A stretch of DNA of 64,000 bases from an uncultured Gellertiella sp. Lineage in GTDB: Bacteria > Pseudomonadota > Alphaproteobacteria > Rhizobiales > Rhizobiaceae. The position numbers were made by a program, and so were the translations under genes. A model generated the notes under the pieces. It was not told the DNA's origin, did no database searches, and saw nothing but the letters and a program-made list of their open reading frames with translations. Positions within the stretch are counted from its first letter, which is position 1; each line of letters opens with the position of its first letter. Below are positions 4,159 to 24,373 of this stretch, piece after piece. The stretch covers positions 2,510,001 to 2,574,000 of the forward strand of contig NZ_OY735139.1 in NCBI RefSeq assembly GCF_963457605.1. The letters run 5' to 3'.

Positions 4159-4209
4159 AAAAGCCGCTTCTCACGGGAAAGGCAAATGGCTTTCCGGAGA
4201 AGCGGCTTT
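4159..4209 (-). terminator. Strong rho-independent terminator of efp
   Basis: A 13-bp perfect stem (4160-4172 with 4197-4209) extended by an inner GGGAAAG/CTTTCC pairing. Read leftwards it ends in GGCTTTTT, as expected for a terminator of efp. It sits immediately upstream of the UbiA gene, insulating the two. Confidence 0.85.
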
Positions 4210-4255
4210 GGCAGGCAAGGCCCCGGTTAGGGGCGACTTGAAAGACAGGACCGGA

Positions 4256-4825: not shown

Positions 4826-5141
4826 AATACTTCCTTGTCACTGTCTGGATCGCATCGTAGAGGACTGGCTCTCGTGGTTTGATTTCGACATTTGTACCCC
4901 GTGTTCTGCACCCTCGAGAGCAAATGTCAAAATCTTGAAAACCACCAGCAAGTTATTGATTCCAGTGGAATTTACGGATTTGACATTCGATCCGCGAGGT
5001 CGCGGCAGATGGGAATCGAATGTCAAATTCATGCCACTGGACGTCTCCAGGAAAACGAGAATTTCTTGATTTCTGCGCGCAAGTACCGCAAATCCGGATA
5101 AATTGCCAGCCTTCCCTTGAACCAACGGTGAAGAAACCTGC
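4826..5141. promoter_or_regulatory. efp/epmA divergent intergenic region with two nested inverted repeats
   Basis: The region holds four copies of a GATTT(n)GACATTyG-like motif arranged as two inverted pairs. Pair A is 4881-4894 with 4921-4934 (14-nt arms, one mismatch), flanked by TGGTTT/AAAACCA. Pair B is 4978-4991 with 5015-5028 (14 nt, perfect), flanked by CCAGTGG (4962-4968) and CCACTGG (5034-5040). No credible gene lies here. The repeats could be operators for a regulator of both transcripts, RNA hairpins in a leader, or a mobile palindromic element of the kind scattered in rhizobial genomes. Confidence 0.6.
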
Positions 5142-6197: not shown

Positions 6198-7240
6198 CGG
6201 GCCGGACACTGCATACGGTCGAAGAACTGGTTGCCGCGGGATTGCTGCCCGGGGACCGGCTTGAGGATGCAAGAAAAGTTGCGCGCCGCTATGCAATCGG
6301 CATCACGCCCGGGATGGCGGACCTGATCCGCCACCCCGATGACCCCATCGGCCTGCAGTTCCTGCCACAGGCTTCGGAACTGCAGACCGCGCCGGAAGAA
6401 AGTGCCGATCCGATCGGTGACCACGCCCACAGCCCCGTGGAAGGCGTGGTGCACCGCTATCCGGACCGGGTGTTGCTGAAACTGCTGCATGTCTGCCCGG
6501 TCTATTGCCGCTTCTGCTTTCGCCGCGAGATGGTCGGGCCGGAGGGTGATGGCATGCTGGTGGGCGAAAAGCTTGCCGCCGCACTTGCCTATATCGCCGC
6601 CCATGAGGAGATCTGGGAGGTGATCCTGACCGGCGGTGATCCCCTGATGCTGTCACCGCGCCGGTTGGGCGAAGTGATGGCGGCGCTGGGTGCCATCAGC
6701 CATGTCCGGATCGTGCGGCTGCACAGCCGCGTGCCCGCCGTCGACCCCGCACGGATCGATGCCGCGATGATCGCGGCGCTGCGCCAGAGCGGCAAGGCCG
6801 TCTATCTCGCCCTCCACGCCAACCATCCGCGCGAGATGACCGGGGCGGCCTGCGACGCGGTGCGCCGCCTGGTTGATTCCGGCATTGTGATGCTGAGCCA
6901 GACCGTGCTGTTGAAGGGTGTCAATGACGATCCCGAGGTGCTGGCCGCGCTGATGCGGCTGTTCGTCGAAAACCGGATCAAACCCTATTACCTCCACCAT
7001 CCCGATCTCGCGCCCGGGACGGCGCATTTCCGCCTGTCGATCGAAGAGGGGCAGCGGGTTGTCTCGGCCTTGAGGGGCAGAATCTCCGGCCTCTGCCAGC
7101 CGGCCTATGTCCTCGATATTCCCGGAGGGCATGGCAAGACCAGTCTTCACGGCCAGTCCGCTCTGCCGCAACCAGATGGACGTCACCTTCTCACGGATTT
7201 CAGGGGTGGGCGGCACGTCTACCCGCCGGAGAAAAAATAG
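6194..7240 (+). CDS. epmB: EF-P lysine 2,3-aminomutase (YjeK type)
   Basis: A 348-aa radical-SAM enzyme. The iron-sulfur motif CPVYCRFC (CxxxCxxC, about residues 101-108) and the TGGDPLML stretch are typical of lysine 2,3-aminomutases. It converts (S)-alpha-lysine to (R)-beta-lysine for EpmA using SAM, a 4Fe-4S cluster and PLP. The start is a TTG overlapping the epmA TGA. Catabolic aminomutases are usually longer (over 400 aa), and the tight linkage to epmA and efp favours the EF-P role. Confidence 0.92.
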   Translation: MTGRTLHTVEELVAAGLLPGDRLEDARKVARRYAIGITPGMADLIRHPDDPIGLQFLPQASELQTAPEESADPIGDHAHSPVEGVVHRYPDRVLLKLLHVCPVYCRFCFRREMVGPEGDGMLVGEKLAAALAYIAAHEEIWEVILTGGDPLMLSPRRLGEVMAALGAISHVRIVRLHSRVPAVDPARIDAAMIAALRQSGKAVYLALHANHPREMTGAACDAVRRLVDSGIVMLSQTVLLKGVNDDPEVLAALMRLFVENRIKPYYLHHPDLAPGTAHFRLSIEEGQRVVSALRGRISGLCQPAYVLDIPGGHGKTSLHGQSALPQPDGRHLLTDFRGGRHVYPPEKK

Positions 7241-8759: not shown

Positions 8760-9011
8760 ATGAACGACCGGATTCGAGACCTTCTGACCAAACTCGGGAA
8801 CCTGCCGGTTCCGGTAGCTGAGCTTGCCGATGAGGCGGATCTCTATACGGCAGGTTTGTCTTCCTTCGCCTCGGTGCAACTGATGCTGGGGATCGAGGAT
8901 GCGTTTGACATCGAGTTTCCCGACAATCTGCTCAACCGAAAGTCGTTTGCCAGTATTGCGGCGATCCGCAGCACGGTCGAGCAGATTCTCGCCCGGAAAG
9001 AGGCGGTCTGA
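8760..9011 (+). CDS. Stand-alone carrier protein (acyl/aminoacyl carrier)
   Basis: An 83-aa protein with a four-helix carrier-protein pattern. The phosphopantetheine site reads AGLSSFASVQ, with Ser35 replacing the usual DS(L/I) serine context (GLSS instead of GxDS). The ATG at 8760 follows a GGGGA and is preferred over upstream in-frame starts, which add a non-homologous 44-residue extension. Its stop overlaps the next ATG (TGATG). In Agrobacterium and Bradyrhizobium, similar carriers are aminoacylated by a seryl-tRNA-synthetase-like ligase encoded next to them, and such a gene is two positions downstream. Holo-form conversion needs a phosphopantetheinyl transferase from elsewhere. Confidence 0.85.
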   Translation: MNDRIRDLLTKLGNLPVPVAELADEADLYTAGLSSFASVQLMLGIEDAFDIEFPDNLLNRKSFASIAAIRSTVEQILARKEAV

Positions 9012-10192
9012 TGAACATGGTCGCGCAGGGGCAGCGTGAAAGCCTGACGGCGAGGGCATCGCGGGTTGCCGCCATCGCCGGGAAATCTGCCGGAGACGTG
9101 GATGCCGAAGGCCGGTTTCCGCGCGAGGCGGTCGATGCCATGATTGCCGAGCGGTTGCTCGGCATCCAGGTGCCGGCAAGCCATGGCGGTGAAGGGGCAA
9201 CCTTTACCGGGATCGCCGAGCTTTGCTCCATCCTCTCGCAGGCCTGTGCCTCGAGCGCGATGATCTTCGCGATGCACCACATCAAGCTGTCGAGCCTGGT
9301 CGAGCACGGGCTGGAAAGTGCCTGGCACACGGAATTCATGGCACGGGTTGCCCGCGAACAGCTGCTTCTCGGCTCCGCCACTACGGAAGGCGGCATTGGC
9401 GGAAACCTGCGCAATTCGATCTGCGCCATCGAGATCGAGGGTGGCACCTGCCGCCTGACCAAGGATGCCACCGTGATTTCCTATGGCGCCCATGCGGATG
9501 CGATCCTGATCACGTCAAGGGCGCACAAGGATGCGGCCGCTTCCGACCAGGTGATGACCGTCTTCACCCGCGATCAGTACACGCTCGAGCGCACCCATGT
9601 CTGGGATACGCTCGGCATGCGCGGCACCTGTTCCGACGGGTTCCTGTTCCAGGGGGAAGCGCCGGCCGAACAGGTCTTCCCGAAACCCTTCGCCGAAATT
9701 GCGGCGCAATCGATGCTCGCCGCTTCGCATCTGCTGTGGAGTGGCGTGTGGTACGGCATTGCTGCCGATGCGGTTGCGCGGTCGCAGGCTTTCGTGCGGG
9801 CTGCCGCCCGCAAGTCGCCCGGCCAGACGCCGCCCGGCGCGCTGCGGCTTGCCGAGGTCTCCAGCCAGCTGCAGATGGTGCGGTCCAACGTTGTTGCCGG
9901 TCTCAAGGCCTATGAGGAGGCCAAGCATGACGAAGACCGCCTGTCCTCGATGGGCTTTGCCGTGGCGATGAACAATGTGAAGATCTGTTCTTCCGAAATG
10001 ATCCTGCCGATCATCAACCATGCGCTGCTGATCTGCGGCATCATGGGTTACAAGAACGGCACGCCCTACAGCCTCGGCCGTCACCTGCGCGATGCGCATT
10101 CGGCCCAGCTGATGATCTCGAATGACCGAATTCTCGGCAACTCGTCCTCTATGCTTCTCGTGCACAAGCTGGACACAAGTCTTCTGGGGTGA
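9011..10192 (+). CDS. Acyl-CoA dehydrogenase-like flavoprotein of the carrier-protein cluster
   Basis: A 393-aa protein with the acyl-CoA dehydrogenase fold: an N-terminal helical domain ([26 protein letters not shown]), a central beta domain and a C-terminal four-helix domain. The usual C-terminal catalytic-glutamate signature (YEGT) is not evident; the corresponding stretch reads [14 protein letters not shown]. It overlaps the carrier gene by one base and the ligase gene at its 3' end. Flavoenzymes of this superfamily can oxidise aminoacyl groups held on carrier proteins, as in prolyl-carrier oxidation for pyrroles. That role here is inference; the substrate is unknown. Confidence 0.8.
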
Positions 10193-10194
10193 CC

Positions 10195-11103
10195 ATGGAT
10201 ATGCAGGTTTCTTTTCTCGACCGTCTGTTTGAGGCGGGTCTTCTGATCGACATGGGCGTCGATGGGCTCTACGGCCGCTCCGGCCCGTTCGAGGAGGTCA
10301 TTGCCGCCTTCGAACGGCTGATCGACCGCATCGGCGGCCCTGACGGTGCCGAGGCAATCCGGTTTCCGCCCGGCATGAACCGGGTCAATTTCGAAACCAG
10401 CGGCTACATGAAGAGCTTTCCGCAACTCGCCGGAACGATCCACTCGTTCTGCGGCTGCGAACTCGATCATGTCAGCCTGCTGAAATGCATGGAAGAGGGG
10501 TCGGACTGGACAAAGGGCCAGGAAGCGACGGACATCGTGCTGACGCCTGCTGCCTGCTATCCGCTCTATCCCGTCGTCGCGCGGCGCGGTGCGGTTGCCG
10601 ACAGCGGCCAGCTTTATGATCTCCAGTCCTATTGCTTCCGCCATGAGCCCTCGAAGGACCCGGCCCGCCAGCAACTGTTCCGCATGCGCGAATACGTATT
10701 CATGGGGCCGGAAGACAAGGTAATGGCCTTCCGCCAGCGCTGGATGGACCGCGGCACCGCGATGATGCAATCGGTTGGCCTGCCTGTCGAAATCGACGTG
10801 GCCAATGACCCGTTCTTCGGTCGCGCCGGTCGCCTGCTGGTCAACAACCAGCGCGACCAGAACCTGAAATTCGAGCTCTTGATCCCGATCACCTCGGTGG
10901 AAAAGCCGACCGCCTGCATGAGCTTCAACTACCATCAGGACCAGTTCGGCCTGAAATGGGGACTGAAATTCGGGGATGGCCAGCCCGCCCACACCGCCTG
11001 TGTCGGTTTCGGCCTCGAACGCATCGCGCTGGCGCTGTTCCATACCCATGGTCTCGACGTCAAGGCATGGCCCGACAGCGTTCGCGCCACGCTCTGGGGC
11101 TGA
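10195..11103 (+). CDS. Amino acid:[carrier protein] ligase (seryl-tRNA synthetase-like)
   Basis: A 302-aa protein matching the catalytic core of atypical class II seryl-tRNA synthetase with no tRNA-binding domain. The three zinc ligands known for this family are present with correct spacing: Cys121, Glu166 and Cys269 (contexts [34 protein letters not shown]). Class II motif 2 and motif 3 arginines are visible ([15 protein letters not shown]). Characterised homologues from Agrobacterium and Bradyrhizobium load small amino acids such as glycine or alanine onto a carrier protein, not tRNA. ATG 10195 has GGGG five bases upstream; a GTG at 10189 overlapping the previous stop is an alternative. Confidence 0.92.
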
Positions 11104-11109
11104 TCGCCG

Positions 11110-12081
11110 ATGTCCGCAGTCTTTGCCGGTCTCGATCCGGCCACCCATGTCCCGCATGCGCTCCATCACAGCGAGCGCATGTGGCCGGAAACCAATTGCT
11201 ATGCCGATCTGTGGATCGAGGTCCTGCATGCACTCGCCCTGCCACCCGAGGCGATGCTCGGCTTTACCCTGACACAGGATTTCGAGGGCGACCAGTTCAC
11301 CTTTTTCAAGGTGCCGCTGGAAGATCTCGAAGCGCTCTATGGCATCCGCTGCACGGAACTGGCGATTTTCGACCAGGTAGAGCTGCATGTCGCCGAACAG
11401 ATCCGCCGCGGGCGGCTCTGTCTGGTCGAAATGGACAGCTATTTCATGCCCGATACCCATGCGACCGGCTATCGCAAGGAGCACGGCAAGACGACGGTCG
11501 GGATCAACCGGCTGGACAGGGATGCCCGGGTGATGGACTATTTCCACAATGGCGGCTTTTTCCGGCTGGAGGGTGAGGATTTCGAGGGCGTGTTCCAGAC
11601 CCATCTCGGCGAGGAGGACGTGCCATTCCTGCCCTATACGGAATTTGCCAAACTTCCGGACGGGAAGCCTGAGCTTGCCGCAATCCGGACGAAGGCGCGG
11701 CAATTGCTGACCTTCCACTTTGGCCGCCGCCCGGCGGAAAATCCGCTGCGCGCCTTCGCTGCGGTGTTTCGCCAGCAGGTGGAGGCGGTGGCCGAGCGCC
11801 CCTTCGGCTTCTTCCACACATATGCCTTCAATACGCTGCGCCAGTTCGGCGCGAATTTCGAGCTGGCGGGGAGCCATCTCGACTGGATCGGCGAAGGCGG
11901 CGAATTCGACGAGGCGGCGCGCGCGGCAGGCCGGCTTTCGGAAGTGGCAAAAACCGTGCAGTTCCAGCTTGCTCGCGCCGTTACCCGCAAGAAGTTCGAT
12001 CCGCTCGCCACGGCCCTCGATCCGGCCATTGACGCCTGGGACCAGATGATGGGATCTCTGGACATGCGCCTTGGCCGCTGA
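11110..12081 (+). CDS. DUF1839 protein, possible cysteine acyltransferase acting on the carrier protein
   Basis: A 323-aa protein of the DUF1839 family, which co-occurs with amino acid:carrier-protein ligases. A conserved-looking triad can be proposed: Cys30 in PETNCYADLW, His125 in YRKEHGKTTVGI and Asp143 in RVMDYFHNGGFF. The layout (N-terminal Cys, then a VEMDSYFMP strand, then His and Asp) resembles the papain-like fold of BtrH-type acyltransferases, which move an aminoacyl group from a carrier protein to an acceptor. That functional parallel is inference. It starts six bases after the ligase stop, and its 3' end lies just before the GH2-like gene. Confidence 0.8.
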   Translation: MSAVFAGLDPATHVPHALHHSERMWPETNCYADLWIEVLHALALPPEAMLGFTLTQDFEGDQFTFFKVPLEDLEALYGIRCTELAIFDQVELHVAEQIRRGRLCLVEMDSYFMPDTHATGYRKEHGKTTVGINRLDRDARVMDYFHNGGFFRLEGEDFEGVFQTHLGEEDVPFLPYTEFAKLPDGKPELAAIRTKARQLLTFHFGRRPAENPLRAFAAVFRQQVEAVAERPFGFFHTYAFNTLRQFGANFELAGSHLDWIGEGGEFDEAARAAGRLSEVAKTVQFQLARAVTRKKFDPLATALDPAIDAWDQMMGSLDMRLGR

Positions 12082-12118
12082 AGCGGCGGACGGCCAGCCA
12101 GCAGCAGAAAGAGGATGC

Positions 12119-14584
12119 ATGCGCCGCCTTTCAACCGCCGGAGCCCGGGTCACCGCCTTGAGCGACGGCTGGACCCTGGTGACATCAGCCGCGGGCCTTT
12201 ACGAAGACCCCGCAGTCGCCTTGCGGGCCGGTCAGGCTGTGGCTGCCCCCGTGCCCGGAACCGTGGCCGGGGCCTTGCGCAACGCAGGGGCCTTTGATCC
12301 GCAACATCCGGTGGCGCTGAACGAACTGGACGCCTGGTATTTTTGCGATCTCTCTGCCGAAGCGCCGGGGCCTGCCATCCTGCGTTTCGAGGGGCTGGCG
12401 ACATGCGCCGGGATCTATCTGAATGACGAACTCCTCCTTTCCACCGAAAGCATGTTCGAGACCTATGATGTCGAGGTCGAGCTGACCGGTCGCGACCGGC
12501 TGGCAATTGCCTTTCGGGCGCTGCGCCCGCATCTCGACCGGGCAGGCCCGCGCGCCCGCTGGCGCCCCCGGATGTTCGACCATCAGGGCTACCGGCTGAT
12601 CCGCACCTCGCTGCTCGGTGCCATGCCGGGCTGGTGCCCGTCGATCCATCCCGTCGGCCCCTTCCGGCCGGTTTCGATCCTGCGACCGGGCGCGGTGCGG
12701 ATCCGGGATCTTGCGCTCCACGCTTCGCTGGAGGGCCGCAATAGGGGCAGGCTCGTGCTCCGCCTTCGCGCCGAAACGGACAGCCCGCCGGTGCTGGCCT
12801 GCAACGGGCAGACAAGCCAGTCCGTTGATATCGGCGAAGGGGAGTGGCAGGCGGAGCTTGTCCTTCACGACATCCGCCCCTGGTGGCCGCATAGCCATGG
12901 CGAGCCCGTTCTTTATCCGGTGTCGATGAGGCTGGGTGGGGAGACCATCGATCTTGGCCACACCGGTTTCCGCTCGGTTGAGGTTGATCGGGGCGCGGAT
13001 GGCAAGGGGTTCGGCCTGACAATCAATGGCGAACCCGTCTTTTGCCGGGGCGCTGTGTGGACCACTGCCGACATCGTCACGCTTGGCGGCACCGGGGCGG
13101 ATTATCTGCCGGTCCTCGAGCGTGCGGTCGAGGCCGGGATGAACATGATCCGCATCGGCGGCACCATGGCCTATGAAAGCCCGGCCTTCTTTGCCTGCTG
13201 CGACCGTCTCGGCCTGATGGTCTGGCAGGATTTCATGTTTGCCAATTTCGACTATCCGGTGAAGGACGAGGGCTTTGTCGCCCATGTCAGGCAGGAGGCA
13301 GGAGACCTCCTCGGCCCTATCAGTGCTGCCCCTTCGCTGGTGGTGCTGTGTGGCGGCAGCGAGATCTACCAGCAGGCGGCGATGCTCGGCCTCGGCAAGA
13401 CCTTCTGGGCGGGGCCGCTGACCGAGACGCTGCTCGCCGAATGCGCCGCCCTCCTGCGGCCCGATGTTGCCTATGTCCCGAATTCGCCCTTTGGTGGCAG
13501 CATGCCCTTTGCGCCGAACGAGGGCGTCACCCACTATTACGGTGTCGGGGCCTATGAACGACCGCTCGAGGATGCCCGCCGGGCGAATGTCCGGTTCTCT
13601 GCGGAATCGCTGGCCTTTGCGCAGGTGCCGCAACAGCGCACGCTCGACGCCCATCTCGCCGTCGCGCCGGTCCATGATCCGCGCTGGAAGGAGCGGGTGC
13701 CCAGAGACCGCGATGCCTCCTGGGATTTCGAGGATACCCGCGACCACTATCTCGAGCGTCTTTACGGGGTGGATCCGGCGCGGCTGCGGCGGGAAGATCC
13801 GGCCCGCTATCTCGACTTTTCGCGCGCGGTAACCGGCGAAGTCTCGGAAAGTGTCTTTGCCGAATGGCGTCGTCCGGGATCGAACTGCCGGGGCGGGCTG
13901 GTCTGGACACTCAGGGATCTCTTGCCCGGCCCGGGCTGGGGCGTCATCGATTCCACCGGCGAGCCGAAGCCGGTGCTCTATGCGCTGAAACGCGCCTTCC
14001 GCCCGGTCCAGCTGTTGCTGGTCGACGAGGGCACCAACGGTCTCGATATCCATGTGCTGAACGAGAAGGCCGACCCGTTGCGCGCCGTGCTGGAGATCCG
14101 TTGCCTGCGCGATGGCCAGCAGCCTGTCGTCACCGGCAGGCGTGAACTCACCCTTGATCCGCGCGGTGCCGTCAGCCTCGCGGCAACCGATCTGTTCGGT
14201 GCCTTCTTCGATACGACCTATGCCTTCCGCTTCGGCCCGCCCGCCCATGACGTGACGGTGGCGATCCTCTCGACGCCAGAGGGCGATCTGCTGGCAGAGG
14301 CCTTCCACTTCCCGCAAGGCCGCGCGAAGGCGATGCATCCTGCCCGCCTCGAGGCGAGCCTCGTGCGCGATGCGGCCCAGTGGTCGCTGCTGGTCGAGGC
14401 CGACCGGTTCGCCCCGTCCGTGTCGGTTGTCTCGCCCACCCACAGGGCAGGCGACGACTGGTTTCACCTGGCACCGGGCGGACGAAAAAGGGTACCGCTG
14501 ATCCCGCGTCCGGGCACCGATCCCGATGCCCTGCCGTCGGGCACGCTGCAGCATCTCGGCTCGCGCCAGATTTTTCCGTTCTGA
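12119..14584 (+). CDS. Glycoside hydrolase family 2, beta-mannosidase-like
   Basis: An 821-aa protein with an N-terminal sugar-binding domain, an immunoglobulin-like domain and a TIM barrel. The barrel carries VWQDFMFANFDYP, typical of beta-mannosidases. The acid/base glutamate is kept in LCGGSEIYQQ (about residue 414) and a nucleophile candidate in RFSAESLAF (about residue 496), though the surrounding residues differ from canonical NE and SEFG motifs. No signal peptide is evident, so it is probably cytoplasmic. ATG 12119 with AAAGAGG upstream is preferred to a TTG at 12071 inside the previous gene. Its place at the end of the carrier operon suggests a mannoside acceptor or product. Confidence 0.8.
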   Translation: MRRLSTAGARVTALSDGWTLVTSAAGLYEDPAVALRAGQAVAAPVPGTVAGALRNAGAFDPQHPVALNELDAWYFCDLSAEAPGPAILRFEGLATCAGIYLNDELLLSTESMFETYDVEVELTGRDRLAIAFRALRPHLDRAGPRARWRPRMFDHQGYRLIRTSLLGAMPGWCPSIHPVGPFRPVSILRPGAVRIRDLALHASLEGRNRGRLVLRLRAETDSPPVLACNGQTSQSVDIGEGEWQAELVLHDIRPWWPHSHGEPVLYPVSMRLGGETIDLGHTGFRSVEVDRGADGKGFGLTINGEPVFCRGAVWTTADIVTLGGTGADYLPVLERAVEAGMNMIRIGGTMAYESPAFFACCDRLGLMVWQDFMFANFDYPVKDEGFVAHVRQEAGDLLGPISAAPSLVVLCGGSEIYQQAAMLGLGKTFWAGPLTETLLAECAALLRPDVAYVPNSPFGGSMPFAPNEGVTHYYGVGAYERPLEDARRANVRFSAESLAFAQVPQQRTLDAHLAVAPVHDPRWKERVPRDRDASWDFEDTRDHYLERLYGVDPARLRREDPARYLDFSRAVTGEVSESVFAEWRRPGSNCRGGLVWTLRDLLPGPGWGVIDSTGEPKPVLYALKRAFRPVQLLLVDEGTNGLDIHVLNEKADPLRAVLEIRCLRDGQQPVVTGRRELTLDPRGAVSLAATDLFGAFFDTTYAFRFGPPAHDVTVAILSTPEGDLLAEAFHFPQGRAKAMHPARLEASLVRDAAQWSLLVEADRFAPSVSVVSPTHRAGDDWFHLAPGGRKRVPLIPRPGTDPDALPSGTLQHLGSRQIFPF

Positions 14585-14593
14585 TTTCCCGTC

Positions 14594-16384
14594 TCACCCG
14601 GCGGGCGGAAAACGCCTTGCCATGGCGAGCACCCCGGCGATGAAGATCTCGCGGGCCTCAGGGGTCGAAAGATTGTGGTCGGTATCGGCGATGAAGCCGA
14701 GCGACACATTGGCAAAGCGGGCGATCTTTTGCCCGCGCTCACCGAAATGGTGGACGAGATTGGCCAGGCCCGGATCGCCCTCGGCATAAAGCAGGCTGAG
14801 GGCTGCCCGGCGTTCCTGCAATTGCGTGAAGGCCTGCTGAACTTCCCGGTAATCCGGCGACAGGAAGGGCAGCGCCTGCAGCACGGTCTCCGACATATGC
14901 AGCAGGCGCTTGGCGACCGCACCGGAGATATTGACCAGCGCGTGTTTCACGGCAATCTCACCCTTGAGGATGCGCAGCCAGGTCGATGCCTGAAACAGCT
15001 TCGTGCCGTAATTGCCGAGCGATTGCGGCACGAAGCGCAGCAGGTCCTCGATATTCTTCCGGCCGTCCCAGAAGAAGAAATAGGGATTGGCCGAGACCGC
15101 GCCCTTCAGCCTGAGATCGCCAAGCAGGCTGCGGAATGCCAGATAGCCGCCGCTGCACCGCCCCGCGACGATGGCAGGCAGCAGGCCCCGGCTCTCGACA
15201 AGATCGAGAGCCGCTGCAACATCCAGCAACTGGGCGTCCGAATAAAGAATCTGTTCCGGCGCGCCTGACAGCGGCGGGCTGTCGCCGGCATTGGCCGCGT
15301 CAAAGCGCAGCGAGGCGACGCCGTCGCGTGCCAGCCGCCGTGCCGCGTCGGCTCCGATCCGGCCCCATCCGGCGCTTGGATGATAGGCGGTTGACAGCAG
15401 GACGACGGTTGCTCCGGTGCGTGGCCCCCCAGGCGGTTCGCACAGGGTTCCAAGCAGGCGACCCCCATCGCCGAAGCGGACCGGCGTTTCGACAAAGCCA
15501 TTGCCTTCAAGCCGCAGCGGCACTTCGGGCAAGGCGGGTGGATCGAGGCGATCGGGCACCAGACCTGCAGACCAGGCGACCAGATCATGGATCAGCGCCT
15601 GCGGTTGTTCGGAAAAATTCAGGTTGCCGACCAGCCGGTCATGGCCATCATGGGAAACCGCCTTCACCCGCAGCCCCTTCGCCTGCACGGCCTCGCCGAA
15701 AAGCTGCTCCTGCGGGCGATCCGGGCGGGCAGCCACCAGCAGGTCCGGGCAGGGTGGCGGGGGCATTGCGCCGATGTCGAAGGCGCGGATACCGGCATGA
15801 ATGCCGTCGGGCAGGCGGAATCCCGAAATCCGGAATCCCCGACCTTCCTTCAGTTCCTTTTCCGGATCCGGCTGGCCATCGGTGATCCGGGCCCAGACGG
15901 CAAGTTCGCGCAGATAGAGACGACCGGAGAGGACGGGGGCAATGAGCGCCACGCCGGACAGGCTGCCCAGGCGATGCCAGACGGTGGCGGCAAGTGCTGC
16001 CCCGAGGCCCTGCGCCACGATCAGGATGCGGCTTGCGCCGGACAGTGCCCGCAGCCGTTCCGCCGCTGTGACGATGGCCTCCTGCCAGTCGCGAAGCGTG
16101 GCGTCGCCCGCACCATCAAGGGCGTTGGCGGTGCCGGGAAGATCGAAGCGCAGGCTGGCAAGGCCGCTCTGGCTGAAATGTTCCGCCGTTACCCGCCAGA
16201 ATTTCCGGGTGGTCATCTCCTCGAAACCCCAGGGGCTGACGAACAGCACGGCCTGATCGCGGGCTTCACCCCCGGCAGGCACGAAGAGGCCGGGGCAGCT
16301 GTCGATGGCGACGGGCAGCGCCGCCAGGGCCGACGGAGGATGGCCGGCACCCGGAAGCGCCGTCTCAAGTCGTTGTTGTCTCAA
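14594..16384 (-). CDS. Double alpha/beta hydrolase (serine aminopeptidase S33-like), first domain degenerate
   Basis: A 596-aa protein with two alpha/beta hydrolase domains (about residues 45-275 and 300-596). The second keeps a nucleophile elbow, AGRCSGGYLAF, with Ser411. In the first, the elbow reads VAQGLGAALA where GHSLG-type sequence is expected, so Gly126 replaces the nucleophile. Similar hydrolases accompany exosortase and polysaccharide loci. The start is taken as TTG 16384, overlapping the flippase stop (TTGA) exactly as epmB overlaps epmA; the long upstream open frame lies inside the flippase gene. It converges on the GH2-like gene with nine bases between. A deacylase or transferase role on the exported glycan is possible. 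Confidence 0.75.
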   Translation of the reverse strand: MRQQRLETALPGAGHPPSALAALPVAIDSCPGLFVPAGGEARDQAVLFVSPWGFEEMTTRKFWRVTAEHFSQSGLASLRFDLPGTANALDGAGDATLRDWQEAIVTAAERLRALSGASRILIVAQGLGAALAATVWHRLGSLSGVALIAPVLSGRLYLRELAVWARITDGQPDPEKELKEGRGFRISGFRLPDGIHAGIRAFDIGAMPPPPCPDLLVAARPDRPQEQLFGEAVQAKGLRVKAVSHDGHDRLVGNLNFSEQPQALIHDLVAWSAGLVPDRLDPPALPEVPLRLEGNGFVETPVRFGDGGRLLGTLCEPPGGPRTGATVVLLSTAYHPSAGWGRIGADAARRLARDGVASLRFDAANAGDSPPLSGAPEQILYSDAQLLDVAAALDLVESRGLLPAIVAGRCSGGYLAFRSLLGDLRLKGAVSANPYFFFWDGRKNIEDLLRFVPQSLGNYGTKLFQASTWLRILKGEIAVKHALVNISGAVAKRLLHMSETVLQALPFLSPDYREVQQAFTQLQERRAALSLLYAEGDPGLANLVHHFGERGQKIARFANVSLGFIADTDHNLSTPEAREIFIAGVLAMARRFPPAG

Positions 16385-17910
16385 TGCAAAGGGTCCTGTT
16401 GTCGAATTCCGGCGATAAGCATTGTGAAACGCGCTGCAAGCAAGGCCCATCTTCCGGGCAGACGCTGGGCCATCGTCATCAGTCCCCCGGCGTCCTTTGG
16501 CGGCACGGCACGCAGCAGCCTGAGCAGCAGGAAATAGCTGAGCGCACCCGAAAGGATTGCCGCTGCGGTTCCCGGAACGCCTGAAATCGCTGTCGCAACC
16601 CCATGCGCGACAACGGCGCAGCCCACAGCGGCAGTGGCGATTTTCGCCAGTGAGGCATACATCGGCAGAAGCGAGCCGTCGAAATTCATCCGCAGTACCA
16701 TCAGCACGCACATCGCGGCCAGCATGACGATGCGCACGGCGGCAGCCCCTTCGCCGCCAAAGCCCGGAACGACGAAATAGCAGCCGAGCGAAATGATCAG
16801 TGCCCCGATGAAGCCGATGATCGTGCGGGGTTTTTCCTGCCCGCAGGCAAACAGGTATTTGGTGCTGATGGCGGCAAAGACCGAAAACGGCGCACTGAGG
16901 CCCAGCAGGGCGACAACCGGGCCGGCCGAGGCAAATTCCGCCCCGAAAATATCGCGCACCAGATCGGTCGCCAGCGCTGCCAGCCCGAAGGCAATCGGCA
17001 GGGTCACATAGGCAAGGATGCGAATCACGTCCTCGAACAGATGCACCGGCAACTTCCGGCCCCCATGCTGATGGGCAAGTTCGGTATAGTAGGGCACCAG
17101 CGCACCGGAAAGCTGGACCGGCAATTGCAGCGCAAGATTGGCCAGTGTCAGGCCGATGGCATAGAAGCCGACGGTGTGGATGCCCATGTAATGTTGCAGA
17201 AAGGTCAGTTCGATGCGGTTGAGGAAAATCGATTCGATGATCGTGCCGAGCGAGATGTAGAGCGAGGCTTTCGCCAGTTCCGCCACCGGGGCCCCACAGC
17301 GATCCGGTTTCACCAGCAGCAGGCGTGCGGCATAGAGGAACATCACCAGATAGCTCGCGACATAGCCGGCAAGGGCACCTGCCGCCCCATAGTGGAGCGC
17401 ACCATAAATGGTGACCGGCACCTGCAGCGCCGCCGAAATCAGCGTCAGGCGCAAGAAGATGTCTGGCCGTTGCTCGCCAACCAGCACATGCACCGTCAGC
17501 GTGCCGATGGCTTGCAACAGGAAGAGCAGGGCCGTGACGATCACCACATCGGGCGTGCCGAAACTCCAGATGGGGTGTTCCGACGTCTGGCTGAGCAGGA
17601 GGAACAGCCCGAGAATGATCAGGGTCACCAGCACCACGAACTGTGCCATGAAGGCGGCAAAGCCGAGACGCTGACGGGCGTCATAACCCTTTGCAGCCAG
17701 TTGCGGCAGCATCCGGGCAAACAGCACGTCGCAGCCAAGTCCGGCAATCAGCGTTCCCGTCGTCGTCAGCCAGAAGGCATAGGCAACAAGGCCGTTGGCC
17801 TCCGGCCCGAGCAGGCGCGCGGTGATGATCGATGAGGCAAAGCCGGTGATCAGCATGGTCATGCCGGCAGCGGCATTGAACAGCGATTTGGTGACAATGC
17901 TTCTGGCCAT
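16381..17910 (-). CDS. Wzx-like flippase (MATE/MOP polysaccharide exporter)
   Basis: A ~509-aa polytopic membrane protein with around 12-14 transmembrane segments. The N-terminus (FNAAAGMTMLITGFASSIITARLLGPEANG) has the pattern of Wzx/RfbX oligosaccharide flippases, which move lipid-linked sugar units across the inner membrane. ATG 17910 (MARSIVTKS) has GGGGAT at proper distance; ATG 17916 and a longer frame to 18024 are possible, but the latter overlaps the GT4 gene. It lies between the glycosyltransferase and the hydrolase, all leftward, forming a surface-glycan unit next to the carrier-protein operon. Confidence 0.85.
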   Translation of the reverse strand: MARSIVTKSLFNAAAGMTMLITGFASSIITARLLGPEANGLVAYAFWLTTTGTLIAGLGCDVLFARMLPQLAAKGYDARQRLGFAAFMAQFVVLVTLIILGLFLLLSQTSEHPIWSFGTPDVVIVTALLFLLQAIGTLTVHVLVGEQRPDIFLRLTLISAALQVPVTIYGALHYGAAGALAGYVASYLVMFLYAARLLLVKPDRCGAPVAELAKASLYISLGTIIESIFLNRIELTFLQHYMGIHTVGFYAIGLTLANLALQLPVQLSGALVPYYTELAHQHGGRKLPVHLFEDVIRILAYVTLPIAFGLAALATDLVRDIFGAEFASAGPVVALLGLSAPFSVFAAISTKYLFACGQEKPRTIIGFIGALIISLGCYFVVPGFGGEGAAAVRIVMLAAMCVLMVLRMNFDGSLLPMYASLAKIATAAVGCAVVAHGVATAISGVPGTAAAILSGALSYFLLLRLLRAVPPKDAGGLMTMAQRLPGRWALLAARFTMLIAGIRQQDPLH

Positions 17911-17983
17911 CAGCATCCCCGCGCCGGCGCAGCGGCCAAAGCGGGACACCCTGGCAAATGGACAGGAGCTCCGGTGGACATCT

Positions 17984-19147
17984 TCATCGCCCGATCCCCG
18001 GCACGGCTCTCTCGTAGGCGGCAAGATAGTGCGCCGCCACGGTGTTCCAGGAGTAGTGGTCGGCCTCCTCCATCAGGCGGGACCGGAGACCTGACCCCTC
18101 CTGCCCCATCCGGTCGAAACCCGAGGCGAGCGCCCCGGCGGCCTGTTCCGCCTGGGTGAAATCGGTGATCACCAGATCCTTGTGGCGGGCGGCGAGTTGC
18201 AGATAGGCATCGTTTTCGTGAAGAACCGGCAGCAGTCCGGCGCTCATCGCTTCGATGGCCACCAGCCCGAAGCCTTCATAGTCGGAGGCCGAGGCAAAGA
18301 TCGAGGCCTTGCCGATCAGGGCTGCGATGGCTTCATTGGGCAGGCCGATATGCAGTCCGACATGCGCATCGAGACCGGCGGCACCGACCATTTGCGCCAG
18401 ATCCGCCTCCTGCAAATCAAAGGGTACCCCGATAATGTCGAGATGCCAGGCCGGGTCATGCCTGACAAGGGCACCCATGGTGGCGATCAGGTTTTCGAGC
18501 CGCTTGTTGCTCGAAAACCGGCCAATCGTCACCATGCGCTTCTGCGGTACCGTGGCACTGCGGCCGGAAAATTTCGAAAGATCGACACCGTTTTCGATGG
18601 TCACCAGCTGGCTTCCGGCGATAAGGCTGAAAGACTGGTGATCGGAGGCGCTGCAGCAGATCAACTGGCGATAGCCGGTGACGGAAACCCGGCTTACCGT
18701 CTGGAACCACAGTTTCTTGATCGCCGCATGGTTCCGGGTGTGAAAGAAGCCGCCATGGGTGGTGGCAACCATCGGCCTGCGGTGCAACAGCCGGAGCCAG
18801 CTGAGCGCGTCAAAGAAAAAGTCCACCGCATGCACGTGGATCAGGTCGGCATCCTGAAGATGGGAGAAGACACCGGGCGACAGCGGATAGCGGGTCGAAC
18901 CGGACCACGGGACCCGCACCACCTCGATGCCCTCGATCATCTCGCGTTCAGGCAGGAGACGGTCCTGTTCGGCAAAGACCTGGTTGCAGGTCACCACCCG
19001 TACCCGAAAGCCCCGCGTCACAAGCTGCCGGCAGAGATTGAAGATCACGTCCTCAAGGCCGCCGCGGCTCGGCAGGAACTGGCGCGAGACATGGACAATC
19101 AGCGGCGAAGTCGAACGGGACGGGGACGGAGGGGGAGGCGCGGTCAA
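17984..19147 (-). CDS. Family 4 glycosyltransferase
   Basis: A 387-aa GT-B glycosyltransferase. The N-terminal acceptor domain begins HVSRQFLPSRGGLEDVIF, the usual glycine-rich start of GT4 enzymes. The C-terminal donor domain has TIGRFSSNKRLENLI and the ExFGLVAIEAMS nucleotide-sugar motif (SDYEGFGLVAIEAMSAG). These retaining enzymes use NDP-sugars such as GDP-mannose in the cytoplasm. It is the first gene of the leftward operon with the flippase and hydrolase. A mannosyl product would fit the beta-mannosidase-like neighbour, but the donor cannot be read from sequence. Confidence 0.88.
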   Translation of the reverse strand: MTAPPPPSPSRSTSPLIVHVSRQFLPSRGGLEDVIFNLCRQLVTRGFRVRVVTCNQVFAEQDRLLPEREMIEGIEVVRVPWSGSTRYPLSPGVFSHLQDADLIHVHAVDFFFDALSWLRLLHRRPMVATTHGGFFHTRNHAAIKKLWFQTVSRVSVTGYRQLICCSASDHQSFSLIAGSQLVTIENGVDLSKFSGRSATVPQKRMVTIGRFSSNKRLENLIATMGALVRHDPAWHLDIIGVPFDLQEADLAQMVGAAGLDAHVGLHIGLPNEAIAALIGKASIFASASDYEGFGLVAIEAMSAGLLPVLHENDAYLQLAARHKDLVITDFTQAEQAAGALASGFDRMGQEGSGLRSRLMEEADHYSWNTVAAHYLAAYERAVPGIGR

Positions 19148-19263: not shown

Positions 19264-21027
19264 TCAACCTTTAAAATCGCGTTTAACCCGTGTCGATTTC
19301 AAATCAATGGTGTCAGGTGCCGCCGGTTGTCCAAATCCATAGCCCTGCAACGTATCACAGCCGAGATTGCGCAGGATCTCGGCATGTTCCGCTGTTTCCA
19401 CGCCCTGTGCGGTGACAGCCATGCCGAAGGCATGGGCGAGGTCGACAAGCGAGCGGATCATGTGCAGCTGTTCCTGGTCGCCGGTGATCGGCCAGACCAG
19501 TTGCCGGTCGAGCTTGACCCGGTCGGGACGGGCCGCAATCAGCGCCTCCAGCGAGGAATGGCCACTGCCGAGATTGACCACCGCAATCTCGATACCCCTT
19601 GCCCGGGCCGCCCGCAGATGGGTGTGAACACGACTGCCCGGCTGGAAAAGCTCGGCTGTGGTCTCGATCTCGAAGCAGATGCTGCCGGGCGCGATATCCA
19701 GATTGTCGAGATCGGCGAGAAGCTCCGCCGAAGCGAGCCGCCGTGCCGACACGTTGACCGAGATCACGGGAACCTTGAGCCCGCGCGCTTCCCAGGCGCG
19801 GATATCGGCCAGAACGCATTTCAGGATCGCCGCATCGAGCTGGTCGATGATTGCGCTGTCGGTGGCCAGCTGCAGGAACTGTTCCGGCAGCAGCAGGCCT
19901 CTTTGCGGATGCTGCCAGCGGGCCAGCGCCTCGAGCCCGATCGTCTCGCGGCTGCGGGCATCGCACTGGACCTGGTAATGCGGCAGGACCGCCCCCTGAA
20001 CAAGCGCTTGCCGGAATTCACTCAGCAAGCGGCGGTCGGCATGGTATTTCTGCGTCAGTTCCGAAGTGAAGAGCTGCGACTGGCCGCGCCCCAGGCGCTT
20101 GGCGCTATAAAGCGCCAGATCGGAATCGCGCAGCAGCGTCTGCACGCTGCGCCGGGGATTGGCGGCAATGCCGATCGAGGCCCCGGTGGTCACCCGCTCG
20201 CCATTGACTTCGATCCCCCGGGAAATCTCGGCGATGATCCGGTCGGCGCGCTGCTTGAGGCGGGTGAGGTCGCTTTCATTGACGACGATCAGCAGGAATT
20301 CGTCACCCCCCATGCGGGCTGCGAAATCCTGCGGGCCGCGTGCGGCGGCAATGGCATTGGCGGCATTGCGCAGCACGAGATCACCGACATCATGACCGAG
20401 TTCGTCATTGACCTGCTTGAAACGGTCGAGATCGATATGCATCATCGCGAAATGCTGGACGGACATCTCCGCCGCAATGCGCTGGCAATAGCGGTCAAAG
20501 GCGCGGCGGTTCGGCAAGCCGGTCAGATAGTCGTGCTCGGCGGCATATTCGATCTGCGCACGGGTGGCCTGAAGGGCTTCGGCACGCTCCTCGGCGATCT
20601 GCTGTTGCTGGGCAAGCGCCCTGTTCAGCTCCACATCCGCCGTCACATCCCATTCGACCCCGATAAAGGCCGGATCGCCCTGGGCATCAATATAATAATT
20701 GGCCTTGGAGCGGATATGCCGGATCTCGCCATTCGGCCAGATGATCCGGAATTGCGAGAGATAGGAGGCCTTGTTGAGGGCAGCGGCCTCGAAATCCGCA
20801 TTGGCGGCATCGAGATCTTCGGGATGAATGGCTTTCATCCAGATTTCGACCGGCATGACGGGCGATGTCATGTCGGTTGCATAGAGCTTGTGCATGCGCT
20901 GGTCCCAGGTGACCTCACTCTTGGTGAGGCTATGTTCCCAGACGCCGATATTGGACGCGTCCAGCGCCAGATCGAGGCGGCGCAGCAGCGACTGGAATTC
21001 TTCCTCCGTATGGTGCGGGAACGTCAT
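19264..21027 (-). CDS. PAS-GGDEF-EAL protein; diguanylate cyclase with degenerate phosphodiesterase site
   Basis: A 587-aa cytoplasmic protein: PAS/PAC sensor (about 15-135), GGDEF domain with intact GGDEF at 240-244, and EAL domain with EAL at 366-368. The EAL domain's central metal-binding motif, normally DDFGTG, reads VNLGSG (Val484, Asn485), so the two key aspartates are gone and c-di-GMP hydrolysis is unlikely. The protein probably makes c-di-GMP, with the EAL part binding or regulating. No transmembrane segments are seen, so the signal is cytoplasmic. It is divergent from the 975-aa fusion gene and next to a surface-glycan locus, a common c-di-GMP target. Confidence 0.88.
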   Translation of the reverse strand: MTFPHHTEEEFQSLLRRLDLALDASNIGVWEHSLTKSEVTWDQRMHKLYATDMTSPVMPVEIWMKAIHPEDLDAANADFEAAALNKASYLSQFRIIWPNGEIRHIRSKANYYIDAQGDPAFIGVEWDVTADVELNRALAQQQQIAEERAEALQATRAQIEYAAEHDYLTGLPNRRAFDRYCQRIAAEMSVQHFAMMHIDLDRFKQVNDELGHDVGDLVLRNAANAIAAARGPQDFAARMGGDEFLLIVVNESDLTRLKQRADRIIAEISRGIEVNGERVTTGASIGIAANPRRSVQTLLRDSDLALYSAKRLGRGQSQLFTSELTQKYHADRRLLSEFRQALVQGAVLPHYQVQCDARSRETIGLEALARWQHPQRGLLLPEQFLQLATDSAIIDQLDAAILKCVLADIRAWEARGLKVPVISVNVSARRLASAELLADLDNLDIAPGSICFEIETTAELFQPGSRVHTHLRAARARGIEIAVVNLGSGHSSLEALIAARPDRVKLDRQLVWPITGDQEQLHMIRSLVDLAHAFGMAVTAQGVETAEHAEILRNLGCDTLQGYGFGQPAAPDTIDLKSTRVKRDFKG

Positions 21028-21445: not shown

Positions 21446-24373
21446 ATGACGAATAATACGCTTCTTCAACGCATCGAAACGCCGAGGCCAGATGTGACGG
21501 TGGGAGAGGCTGCTGCAATTCTCGAGACTTTCTATGGTTTGACCGGTCCCATCGTTGAACTGGGCAGTCAGCAGGACCGCAATTATCGTATTTCCGCGCC
21601 GGAGGGTCGATTTGTTCTGAAGATCTGCCGTTCGGACTATGCGACGGTGGAACTGGAAGCGCAGAACGCAGCAATGATCCATCTCAGCGGCAAGTCGGGT
21701 GCGCCGCGTGTGCCGCTGCCGCAGCGGGCGCGCAATGGCGACGATATCCTGTTTCTCGCCGTTGGCGGCGTCGACTATCAGGTGCGGCTGCTGAGCTATC
21801 TCGATGGCGAGCCGCTCACCCGCCGTCACCACATGTCCCGCCAGATGGTTGAGGGATTGGGGGCGCTGGCCGGGCATCTGGCGGCAAGCCTCAGGGATTT
21901 CACCCATCCGGGCCTTCAGCGCGAGGTGCAGTGGGATTTGCGCCGCGCCGGGCCGGTGGCGCTGCATCTGCTGTCGGGGGTCGCCGATCAGACGATGCGG
22001 GCGCATATTGCCAAGGTGATGGTTGCGTCGGTCAAACGGATCCAGCCTCTTGCCCCGTCGCTGCGGCTGCAGCCGATCCATCATGACGTGACGGATGACA
22101 ATGTCGTGGCGCGTCCCGATCAGGATGGCCGGTTGATTGCCGATGGCGTCATCGATTTCGGCGATATTGTCGAAGGCTGGCTGGTTGCCGATCTCGCTGT
22201 CACCTGCGCCAGCCTGCTGCACCATGCCGATGGCGACCCCTTCTATATCCTGCCTGCAATCCGGGCCTTCCATGCGATATCGCCGCTCGAGCAGGCCGAA
22301 GCCCTGGCACTCTGGCCGCTGATCGTGGCACGGGCCGGCATTCTGGTCGCCAGCAGCGAGATGCAGCTCTCCATCGACCCGGACAATGACTATGTCATGG
22401 CCAATGCCAGGCATGAGCGCGAAATTTTCGATGTTGCGACCAATGCCTCGCATCCCCTGATGGAAATGGCGATCCTGCAGGCAACCGGATTTGAGCCCCA
22501 GGCGGAAGATCTGCCTGTACTGGGTGCCCTGCTGCCCGGTATCCAGCCGGACCAGGTGCGCTTTGCCGATTTCTCCGTGGAAAGCCGCGCCCTGTCGCGC
22601 GACAGCTGGGCATCGCCACAGACCGAAGTCAGGCTGATGGAGCAGGCGGCACGCGAAACCGGCGTGGCGGTGGCGCGTTATGGCGAATACCGGTTGACCC
22701 GCACGGAACTGCTGAGCCCCCGCGAGCCGGAAAACCACGCCTTGCATCTGGCGATCTGCGTGCCTGCCGGTTTTCAGGCCGCCGCCCCCTTCGCCGGGCG
22801 GATCGAACGCAATGGAGCGCATACGGTTCTGGTCGGTGAACGCCTGTCGCTGCATCTCGAAGGTCTCGATACCGTGCATACTGCCGGCATGACCGTTGAA
22901 CAGGGTGAACCGCTCGGCACGATCGCCGGCGAAAATGGCCGGTTCGGACATCTGGCGGTTCAGCTCGTCGATGGCCAGACGCTCCTGCCGCCGCTGTTTA
23001 CCACCGCGGCCAAAGCTGCGGCCTGGCGCAGGCTCTGCCCGTCGCCCTCCGGCCTGCTTGGTCTCGATTGCGATGCGCCGCAGCTTGAAGGGCGGCAGTT
23101 GCTGGACAAGCGCCATGCCAGCTTTGCCGCTGCGCAGAAAAACTACTACCGGGATCCGCCGCAGATCGAACGGGGCTGGAAAGAATTCATGTTCGACACC
23201 CGGGGCCGCACCTATGTCGACATGCTGAACAATGTCGCGATTGCAGGCCATGGCCATCCGCGGCTGGCGGAGGCCGCAGGCCACCAGTGGTCGATGCTGA
23301 ACACCAATTCCCGGTTCCACTATGCCGGGATTGCCGAGTTTTCAGAACGGCTGGCGGCGCTCGCGCCTGACGGGCTCGACACGGTCTTTCTCGTCAACTC
23401 CGGCTCGGAAGCGGTCGATCTCAGTCTGCGCCTTGCCTGGGCGGCCAGCGGGGCGAAGCATGTCGTCAGCCTGCTCGAAGCCTATCACGGCTGGACCATG
23501 GCGAGCGACGCGGTCTCCACCTCGATTGCCGACAACCCGGCGGCCCTCACCACCCGGCCCGAATGGGTGCATCCGGTGATGTCGCCGAACACCTATCGCG
23601 GGGCCTATCGCGGTCATGACAGTGCCGCCTCCTATGTCGCCCATGTCGACGAGGCGCTGCATCGGCTGACGGCAAGGGGCGAAAAGCTCGGCGGTTTCAT
23701 CTGCGAGACGGTCTATGGCAATGCCGGTGGCATACCCTTGCCGGACGGCTACCTGAAGGCGGTCTATGAGCGGGTCCGCGCCCTCGGCGGCGTGTGCATC
23801 GCCGACGAGGTGCAGGTCGGCTTCGGGCGTCTCGGCCATCATTTCTGGGGCTTCGAGCAGCAGGGCGTGGTGCCGGATGTGATCTGCGTCGCCAAGGGCA
23901 TGGGCAACGGCCATCCGCTCGGTGCCGTCATCACCCGTCGCGCGATTGCCGATGCGCTGGAGCGGGAAGGCTATTTCTTCTCCTCCGCCGGCGGCAGCCC
24001 GGTCAGCTGTGCCATCGGCATGACGGTGCTCGACATCATGGAAGACGAGGGCCTGCAGGAAAATGCCCGCGTGGTCGGCGATCACCTGAAGTCGCGGCTG
24101 GAAATGCTTTGCCAGAGGCATCCGATTGCGGGTGCAGTGCACGGCATGGGCCTCTATCTCGGTCTTGAATTCGTCCGCGACCGCGAGACGCTGGCCCCGG
24201 CCACCGAGGAAACCGCCGCGATCTGTGACCGGCTGCTCGATCTCGGCATCCTGATGCAGCCGACAGGCGACCATCTGAACGTGCTGAAGATCAAGCCACC
24301 GCTTTGCCTCGGCGTCGAAACGGCAGACTATTTTGCCGACATGCTGGACCGGGTACTGAGCGACGGCTGGTAA
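21446..24373 (+). CDS. Hydroxylysine kinase / 5-phosphohydroxylysine phospholyase-type fusion
   Basis: A 975-aa three-part protein. The N-terminus (about 20-330) is an APH-fold kinase with Brenner motif IHHDVTDDN near residue 212 and DFGD near 238. A middle beta-rich segment (about 430-530) resembles an M23-peptidase or barrel domain but lacks the zinc HxH. The C-terminus (about 560-975) is a class III PLP aminotransferase-fold enzyme with the PLP lysine in CVAKGMGNGHPLG. Human homologues are two proteins, a 5-hydroxylysine kinase and a phospholyase giving aminoadipate semialdehyde, ammonia and phosphate. The substrate here is inferred; phosphoethanolamine is an alternative. It appears monocistronic, and a terminator follows. 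Confidence 0.82.
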   Translation: MTNNTLLQRIETPRPDVTVGEAAAILETFYGLTGPIVELGSQQDRNYRISAPEGRFVLKICRSDYATVELEAQNAAMIHLSGKSGAPRVPLPQRARNGDDILFLAVGGVDYQVRLLSYLDGEPLTRRHHMSRQMVEGLGALAGHLAASLRDFTHPGLQREVQWDLRRAGPVALHLLSGVADQTMRAHIAKVMVASVKRIQPLAPSLRLQPIHHDVTDDNVVARPDQDGRLIADGVIDFGDIVEGWLVADLAVTCASLLHHADGDPFYILPAIRAFHAISPLEQAEALALWPLIVARAGILVASSEMQLSIDPDNDYVMANARHEREIFDVATNASHPLMEMAILQATGFEPQAEDLPVLGALLPGIQPDQVRFADFSVESRALSRDSWASPQTEVRLMEQAARETGVAVARYGEYRLTRTELLSPREPENHALHLAICVPAGFQAAAPFAGRIERNGAHTVLVGERLSLHLEGLDTVHTAGMTVEQGEPLGTIAGENGRFGHLAVQLVDGQTLLPPLFTTAAKAAAWRRLCPSPSGLLGLDCDAPQLEGRQLLDKRHASFAAAQKNYYRDPPQIERGWKEFMFDTRGRTYVDMLNNVAIAGHGHPRLAEAAGHQWSMLNTNSRFHYAGIAEFSERLAALAPDGLDTVFLVNSGSEAVDLSLRLAWAASGAKHVVSLLEAYHGWTMASDAVSTSIADNPAALTTRPEWVHPVMSPNTYRGAYRGHDSAASYVAHVDEALHRLTARGEKLGGFICETVYGNAGGIPLPDGYLKAVYERVRALGGVCIADEVQVGFGRLGHHFWGFEQQGVVPDVICVAKGMGNGHPLGAVITRRAIADALEREGYFFSSAGGSPVSCAIGMTVLDIMEDEGLQENARVVGDHLKSRLEMLCQRHPIAGAVHGMGLYLGLEFVRDRETLAPATEETAAICDRLLDLGILMQPTGDHLNVLKIKPPLCLGVETADYFADMLDRVLSDGW

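Follow-up and report, generated by a model that had tools for sequence, protein, structure and literature searches.

A conserved, predicted carrier-protein aminoacylation operon and its possible coupling to surface-polysaccharide synthesis in Rhizobiaceae

Genes of the locus

The window analyzed here is a 64,000-nucleotide stretch of the genome of an uncultured Gellertiella sp., a member of the Rhizobiaceae. Our subject is a group of eight genes within it, which comprises an operon of five plus-strand genes (8760-14584), predicted to load and process a carrier-bound amino acid, and three minus-strand genes that include a flippase and a glycosyltransferase. Their products were assigned as follows.

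8760-9011, plus strand: acyl/aminoacyl carrier protein (ACP), with its phosphopantetheine site at Ser35 (PF00550; NF005480)
9011-10192, plus strand: flavoprotein of the acyl-CoA dehydrogenase (ACAD) fold (PF02771/PF00441)
10189-11103, plus strand: amino acid--[carrier protein] ligase, resembling seryl-tRNA synthetase (NF005479; PDB 4h2w/3mey)
11110-12081, plus strand: DUF1839 protein, a predicted papain-fold, carrier-dependent aminoacyl transferase with Cys30 (PF08893, 438 bits; AlphaFold 2 model; Foldseek)
12119-14584, start possibly at 12071, plus strand: GH2 protein, closest to beta-mannosidases (5n6u)
14594 to about 16450, start uncertain, minus strand: fused double alpha/beta hydrolase with hydr2-like and hydr1-like halves (TIGR03101/TIGR03100, both under cut-off)
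16381-17910, minus strand: Wzx-type flippase (PF13440/PF01943)
17984-19147, start uncertain, minus strand: GT4 glycosyltransferase (PF13439/PF00534)

The five plus-strand products named in an original prediction made from the DNA alone were all recovered by profile and structure matches, as were the GT4 enzyme, the flippase and the double hydrolase on the minus strand. The tight overlaps that it described are present between the ACP and ACAD genes (1 nt) and between the ACAD and ligase genes (4 nt). The DUF1839 gene starts 6 nt past the ligase, and an overlap with GH2 depends on the choice between a TTG start codon within the DUF1839 gene and an ATG 37 nt downstream. The two groups of genes do not lie nose to nose, as was first thought, and instead converge tail to tail, GH2 ending at 14584 and the hydrolase at 14594, with 9 nt between them.

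Conservation and co-occurrence of the gene set

Conservation was analyzed in 127 DUF1839 loci, made up of the best 80 of 574 DUF1839 relatives, mostly from Rhizobium, and 47 loci from other genomes or plasmids. Four entries (L001, L082, L083 and L125) had been excluded as duplicates or short pieces, and a screen for near-identical pairs (5 kb at 99.5%) showed none left thereafter. Alignment rows whose extended frame contained a stop were removed, four DUF1839 rows among them. Matches to the ACP, the ACAD-fold protein and the ligase were found in 126 of the 127 loci, and 124 had a match to GH2, counting fragments, demonstrating that the gene set is not a chance association. The sole locus without the core, L099, carries a second DUF1839 copy in a genome with a full operon elsewhere (L098). 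The hydrolase gene was present at 62 loci, GT4 at 34 and the flippase at 32. The operon core spans alpha- and betaproteobacteria, and the five genes occur in identical order in Azospirillum, Mycetohabitans and Caballeronia. The carrier operon ends with the hydrolase gene in both Azospirillum and Mycetohabitans, and the original grouping of the hydrolase with the glycan genes only is thus incorrect.

Co-occurrence was determined in 199 genomes of the Rhizobiaceae, with orthologue thresholds of E ≤ 1e-20 for the double hydrolase, E ≤ 1e-40 for the flippase and E ≤ 1e-60 for GT4. DUF1839 was found in 40 of these genomes, from 21 genera, and the double hydrolase in the identical 40 and no other. 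Ligase relatives (E ≤ 1e-10) were present in 43 genomes, namely the 40 with DUF1839 and three with distant sequences of about 30% identity. As at most six hydrolase candidates were scored per genome in this search, two controls with negative genomes, picked by handle and not randomly, were added. A hydrolase profile detected the protein in all 11 DUF1839-positive genomes from outside the Rhizobiaceae and also in G465 of the family (12 of 12 in total). Among 80 DUF1839-negative genomes, with up to 16 candidates scored in each, it gave one hit, a partial single-domain match of 87 bits, and among 24 DUF1839-negative genomes of the family, nine of them also among the 80, it gave none with every candidate scored. 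Nine of the 40 positive genomes have their only or best hydrolase copy on a different contig from the operon, or at a distance of about 243 kb in the case of G707; some of these contig splits may be assembly breaks, an explanation that does not hold for G707 and G711. The double hydrolase is thus an obligate partner of the carrier operon, even when unlinked.

The glycan genes fall within the same set of genomes. Flippase orthologues were identified in 18 of the 199 genomes, including one weak match of 32% (G665), and GT4 orthologues in 22, all of them among the 40 DUF1839-positive genomes, so that the predicted association of glycan genes with the ligase operon was borne out in the family. At seven loci the flippase gene remains linked where the neighboring gene epmA is absent, which argues that plain inherited synteny is no explanation for it. 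We also examined ten loci in which the hydrolase gene lies apart from the operon (L143 to L152), part of whose open reading frames (ORFs) were annotated. Among the ORFs examined, glycan genes were found near the hydrolase in eight of the ten: a MurJ-type flippase and a weak Wzz match at L143; GNVR and a sub-threshold Wzy_C at L144; GT2 at L145; GH5, Wzx, a GINT1-type transferase and a weak Wzz match at L146; Wzx, Wzy_C and a weak Wzz match at L147; rows of GT4 genes at L149 and L150; and GT2 with a sugar dehydratase at L151. Locus L152 is a second hydrolase copy of genome G753 and lies beside citrate-synthase and PrpD genes.

Other neighbors vary. Wzz, GT2, GT4 and GH5 proteins recur near the operon in Rhizobiaceae; GT9 and sulfotransferase genes lie 5 to 8 kb upstream of it in A. 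brasilense, and a gene for an ArnT-type transferase 7 kb upstream in Mycetohabitans. The operon comes immediately after nifHDK...fdxB on plasmids of R. acidisoli and R. gallicum, and loci L038, L055, L056 and L065 share ORF families of nifD/E, nifK/N, nifX and a NifX-associated gene. ORF clustering was used for these nif families only, as it mixed in wrong-frame ORFs, and they were rechecked separately. Two copies on symbiotic plasmids (L089:3606-15960 and L132:3604-18500) lie directly downstream of a nif cluster, and a gene annotated as an exopolysaccharide production repressor is also found upstream of them.

In the window itself, positions 3601-7240 hold genes for EF-P (minus strand), EpmA (5142-6197) and EpmB (6194-7240), named by eye or from relatives; EpmA is the second paralogue of tRNA synthetases here and is encoded 4 kb from the ligase gene. 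We rejected these three proteins as pathway partners: EpmA is present at 57 of the 80 and 9 of the 47 loci, yet missing from others with a full operon. The ABC-transporter and MocA genes beside operons of the R. tropici group were likewise set aside and taken as clade synteny. On the other side, an aminotransferase fusion of the PRK06149 type (21446-24373; 1510 bits) adjoins a GGDEF-EAL protein (19264-21027) and is again found next to the operon in the closest relatives.

Predicted functions of the encoded proteins

The ligase scored 502.5 bits against NF005479 (cut-off 357) and matched the Bll0957 structures 4h2w (E = 1.6e-97) and 3mey (E = 8.8e-93). The three zinc ligands claimed for it form a complete Cys/Glu/Cys set: C123, E153 and C271, which we take from the Bll0957 structures to be those ligands, are each kept in 129 of 129 aligned relatives. 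The Bradyrhizobium amino acid:carrier protein ligases (Bll0957, PDB 3mey/4h2w) belong to the same family and have the same set. The family is already known, its members having reportedly been described in 2010; relative to the Bll0957 system, the new part of the window operon is the DUF1839, GH2 and hydrolase partners. The ACP reached 116.6 bits against NF005480 (cut-off 72) and matched the phosphopantetheine-binding family PF00550, with Ser35 present in 129 of 129 aligned sequences. According to a review, homologues of the ligase load Gly, Ala or Ser onto a carrier and do not charge tRNA. Another paper lists bll0957 and bll0958 (acd), which have consecutive locus tags, in one table, both upregulated in a phaR mutant at 0.5% oxygen (PMC10888616).

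Comparable genes occur elsewhere in other settings. A Priestia megaterium plasmid (L130:10142-18689) carries genes for a holo-ACP synthase, an ACP, an ACAD, a ligase, an ATP-grasp ligase, an alanine permease, a racemase and Ddl. The ATP-grasp ligase resembles dapdiamide A synthase, under the cut-off of that model, and the cluster would fit a pathway to an alanine analogue together with genes for self-protection; its coupling to the permease, racemase and Ddl hints at alanine as the loaded amino acid. On a Tsukamurella plasmid (L131:8740-18909), the ligase, carrier and a phosphopantetheinyl transferase are found among glycosyltransferase and exopolysaccharide genes, with no flavoprotein and no DUF1839.

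The Dlt system (DltA/DltC) catalyzes the D-alanylation of teichoic acids. The window operon would resemble it in placing a small amino acid on a stand-alone carrier bound for an envelope polymer, and the window ACP weakly matches DltC models, under their cut-offs (PRK05087, 26.3 versus 68 bits; TIGR01688, 19.7 versus 52.35 bits). It differs in that the ligase is of another fold and that a soluble DUF1839 protein stands in place of the membrane protein DltB.

The flavoprotein lacks the usual catalytic residues of its fold. Positions I369 and L241, mapped through a low-identity phmmer alignment, are presumably those of the catalytic Glu in short-chain acyl-CoA dehydrogenase (SCAD) and isovaleryl-CoA dehydrogenase, respectively. 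The former is Ile in 124 and Val in 3 of 127 sequences, and the latter is Leu, Ile, Thr or Val, with Glu in 0 of 128. With both Glu positions lost, ordinary ACAD-type alpha,beta-desaturation appears unlikely from the sequence, and of the "possibly oxidized" amino acid of the original prediction, a different kind of oxidation may stand. H240, W243 and W247 are invariant (128 of 128). The profile and the structural model (pLDDT 77) matched SCADs and other dehydrogenases about as well as the ACAD-fold flavin monooxygenases KijD3, DnmZ, TdsC/DszC and MsuC; the flavoprotein would differ from KijD3, DnmZ and TdsC/DszC in its predicted carrier-bound substrate. It is a probable oxidase or N-oxygenase of a carrier-bound amino acid, the oxidation or N-oxygenation of tethered Gly or Ala being a reasoned guess.

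The AlphaFold 2 model of the DUF1839 protein (pLDDT 86.2, pTM 0.87) was compared with the PDB using Foldseek, and all 15 matches at E ≤ 0.001 were AziU3/U2, CtaG or CcbD (E from 1e-6 to 7e-4, probability 1.00, TMq 0.51 to 0.62; best values 1e-6 for AziU3/U2, 5e-6 for CtaG and 2e-4 for CcbD). With CcbD/LmbD, CtaG and AziU3 it has in common the fold of the whole chain (TM about 0.5 to 0.6) and a conserved Cys at a helix start. It differs from CcbD, CtaG and AziU3 in its sequence, with which a PDB search returned nothing credible (best E = 0.62), and in its triad, described as C-(T/S)-H. C30, H125, Y144 and H146 are kept in 124 of 124 sequences, taking the best copy per locus. In a smaller alignment the Cys is present in 23 of 26 sequences, and the three exceptions, all of them operon copies (L086:19744-20679, L098:9076-10017 and L101:8448-9377), each share a genome with a Cys-bearing copy. 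The genomes are those of Cupriavidus metallidurans and two others of the window's phylum. The Cys-less operon copies also lost one or both T/S residues, and the second copies, 4 to 5 kb from the hydrolase, keep both Cys and T/S. Loss of the Cys in the operon copy with its retention in the second copy fits a catalytic Cys.

As described in PMC12945683, CcbD transfers a carrier-tethered proline first to its own Cys and then to the amine of a sugar, in a carrier-dependent, ping-pong reaction; the same kind of carrier-bound aminoacyl donor is proposed here for DUF1839. The lincosamide amino acid is activated by an adenylation domain, versus the ligase related to aminoacyl-tRNA synthetases in the window operon. 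Earlier mutant work placed LmbD in the condensation step, although the authors took its role to be structural (PMC4351081). Based on the resemblance of the model to carrier-dependent Cys amide synthases, DUF1839 is probably an aminoacyl transferase, and the fold thus fits the transferase role originally proposed for it. Part of this idea is already in print: PMC10318531 classes PF08893 among papain-like proteins, gives its triad as C-(T/S)-H and suggests acyl-CoA-dependent processing of glycans.

In the double hydrolase, the C-terminal half has a nucleophile elbow with Cys439 (GRCSG; numbered for a reading frame starting at 16471) in all 61 aligned sequences, and the N-terminal elbow has Ser in just 5 of 61. 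The Cys elbow is also present in nine unlinked or second copies; L151, split over two pieces, is outside this count. Both halves are similar to the exosortase-A hydrolases 1 and 2, in the order hydr2-hydr1. They differ from these in being fused and in scoring under the cut-offs, with 54.3 versus 168.45 bits for TIGR03100 and 57.9 versus 202.75 bits for TIGR03101 in the window, and likewise in four further double hydrolases (five tested in all). None of six hydrolase or carrier terms was found in PMC1569441.

The closest solved structures to the GH2 protein are beta-mannosidases (best 5n6u, E = 5.8e-47). E431 and E512, which we take to correspond to the acid/base and nucleophile positions of the aligned beta-mannosidases, are kept in 117 of 117 sequences, and no obvious signal peptide was seen by eye. 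Mannoside hydrolysis is thus a prediction from sequence. The "mannose-containing" glycan of the original prediction has this resemblance as its sole source.

Proposed pathway and alternatives

With moderate confidence, we propose that the locus encodes a pathway for the aminoacylation of a carrier protein, and that this pathway is coupled to the synthesis of a surface polysaccharide. From gene content, conservation, co-occurrence and fold resemblance, we infer its reactions, amino acid and acceptor. The ligase would adenylate Gly or Ala and load it onto the phosphopantetheine of the ACP, as known for its family, and the flavoprotein may then oxidize or N-oxygenate the tethered amino acid. Judging by fold and conservation, the aminoacyl group would next move onto Cys30 of DUF1839 and, in ping-pong fashion, to an amine of the acceptor, much as CcbD acts on an amino sugar. 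The double hydrolase with its Cys elbow might perform a second acyl transfer or proofreading, and GH2 might trim or transfer a residue of beta-manno type on the acceptor. This acceptor would most probably be an exopolysaccharide or the lipid-linked repeat of one. For the Rhizobiaceae we consider the latter most likely, as the repeat unit of a Wzx/Wzy polysaccharide that is built with GT4 and exported by the flippase. We regard as doubtful a more specific version, in which the flavoprotein, as a group-D-like enzyme, N-oxygenates the carrier-bound amino acid, DUF1839 and the hydrolase, as two Cys acyltransferases, put this modified residue on the lipid-linked exopolysaccharide unit before flipping, and the nif-side copies make it a symbiosis trait. 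If true, it would be an additional route by which bacteria equip surface polymers with amino acids.

Several observations weigh against coupling to a polysaccharide. The flippase and GT4 genes, which co-occur with the operon among Rhizobiaceae genomes as originally predicted, do not adjoin it in the Azospirillum, Mycetohabitans and Caballeronia records. Even among the 40 DUF1839-positive genomes, the flippase orthologue is missing in 22 and GT4 in 18, and the counts over the 199 genomes carry no phylogenetic correction. No glycan gene was found among the ORFs examined at L148 and L152, and some plasmid copies have GH2 in pieces (L089) or unannotated (R. binae). By sequence, the DUF1839 triad is C30, T/S128-129 and H146, i.e., C-(T/S)-H and not C-H-D/E, with H125 as an alternative His, and an hhalign comparison with seven BtrH_N (PF14399) proteins was not significant (probability 3%, E = 0.015), so that the suggestive motif serves as a lead only. 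Because this profile test failed and the order of the triad differs, we liken DUF1839 to CcbD, CtaG and AziU3 in mode of action and do not call it a member. AziU3 and CtaG act in small-metabolite pathways. By analogy, DUF1839, whose structural relatives AziU3, CtaG and CcbD make small molecules, might do the same.

The latter point leads to the main rival, in which the product is a small, diffusible conjugate of an amino acid with an amine or a sugar (a signal, an antimetabolite or a symbiosis factor), and the genes for polysaccharide synthesis adjoin the operon without being part of the pathway. In addition to the pathways of the structural neighbors of DUF1839, the Azospirillum, Mycetohabitans and Caballeronia operons without an adjoining flippase or GT4, the copies directly after a nif cluster on symbiotic plasmids, and the Priestia combination of ACP, ACAD and ligase with alanine permease, racemase, Ddl and an ATP-grasp ligase are in its favor. 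However, the obligate hydrolase has glycan genes nearby at eight of ten loci even off the operon, and within the family the flippase and GT4 orthologues were found in DUF1839-positive genomes only; we thus consider such a conjugate possible and somewhat unlikely. The same gene evidence as for a polymer would accommodate a cell-bound acceptor, i.e., an aminoacylated glycolipid, lipopolysaccharide core or other molecule, with the lipid moved by the flippase. The GINT1-type glycosyltransferase at L146 and the ArnT-type gene upstream of the Mycetohabitans operon point in that direction, and GH2 and DUF1839, which appear cytosolic, would act before export. The presence of Wzz/GNVR and Wzy_C genes, in part as weak matches, near the hydrolase at L144, L146 and L147 suggests a polymer instead and makes a cell-bound acceptor improbable in our view. 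Least probable is a catabolic module for amino-acid oxidation or thioester clearing, with both Cys enzymes as thioesterases. The ACAD fold, the alpha/beta-hydrolase domains and the L152 hydrolase beside citrate-synthase and PrpD genes would agree with it, but an activating ligase would then waste ATP, the co-occurrence of GH2 and glycan genes would be left unexplained, and the DUF1839 fold suggests amide synthases.

Among the titles and abstract openings of the literature searched, no report of the combined pathway was found. For the amino acid:carrier protein ligases, a predicted transferase of a known mechanism class and an obligate hydrolase near glycan loci provide a directly testable pathway. 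If coupling to surface polysaccharide is correct, it would explain the role of these long-orphaned enzymes, and enzymes derived from tRNA synthetases would provide bacteria, plant symbionts among them, with building blocks for their surface glycans.

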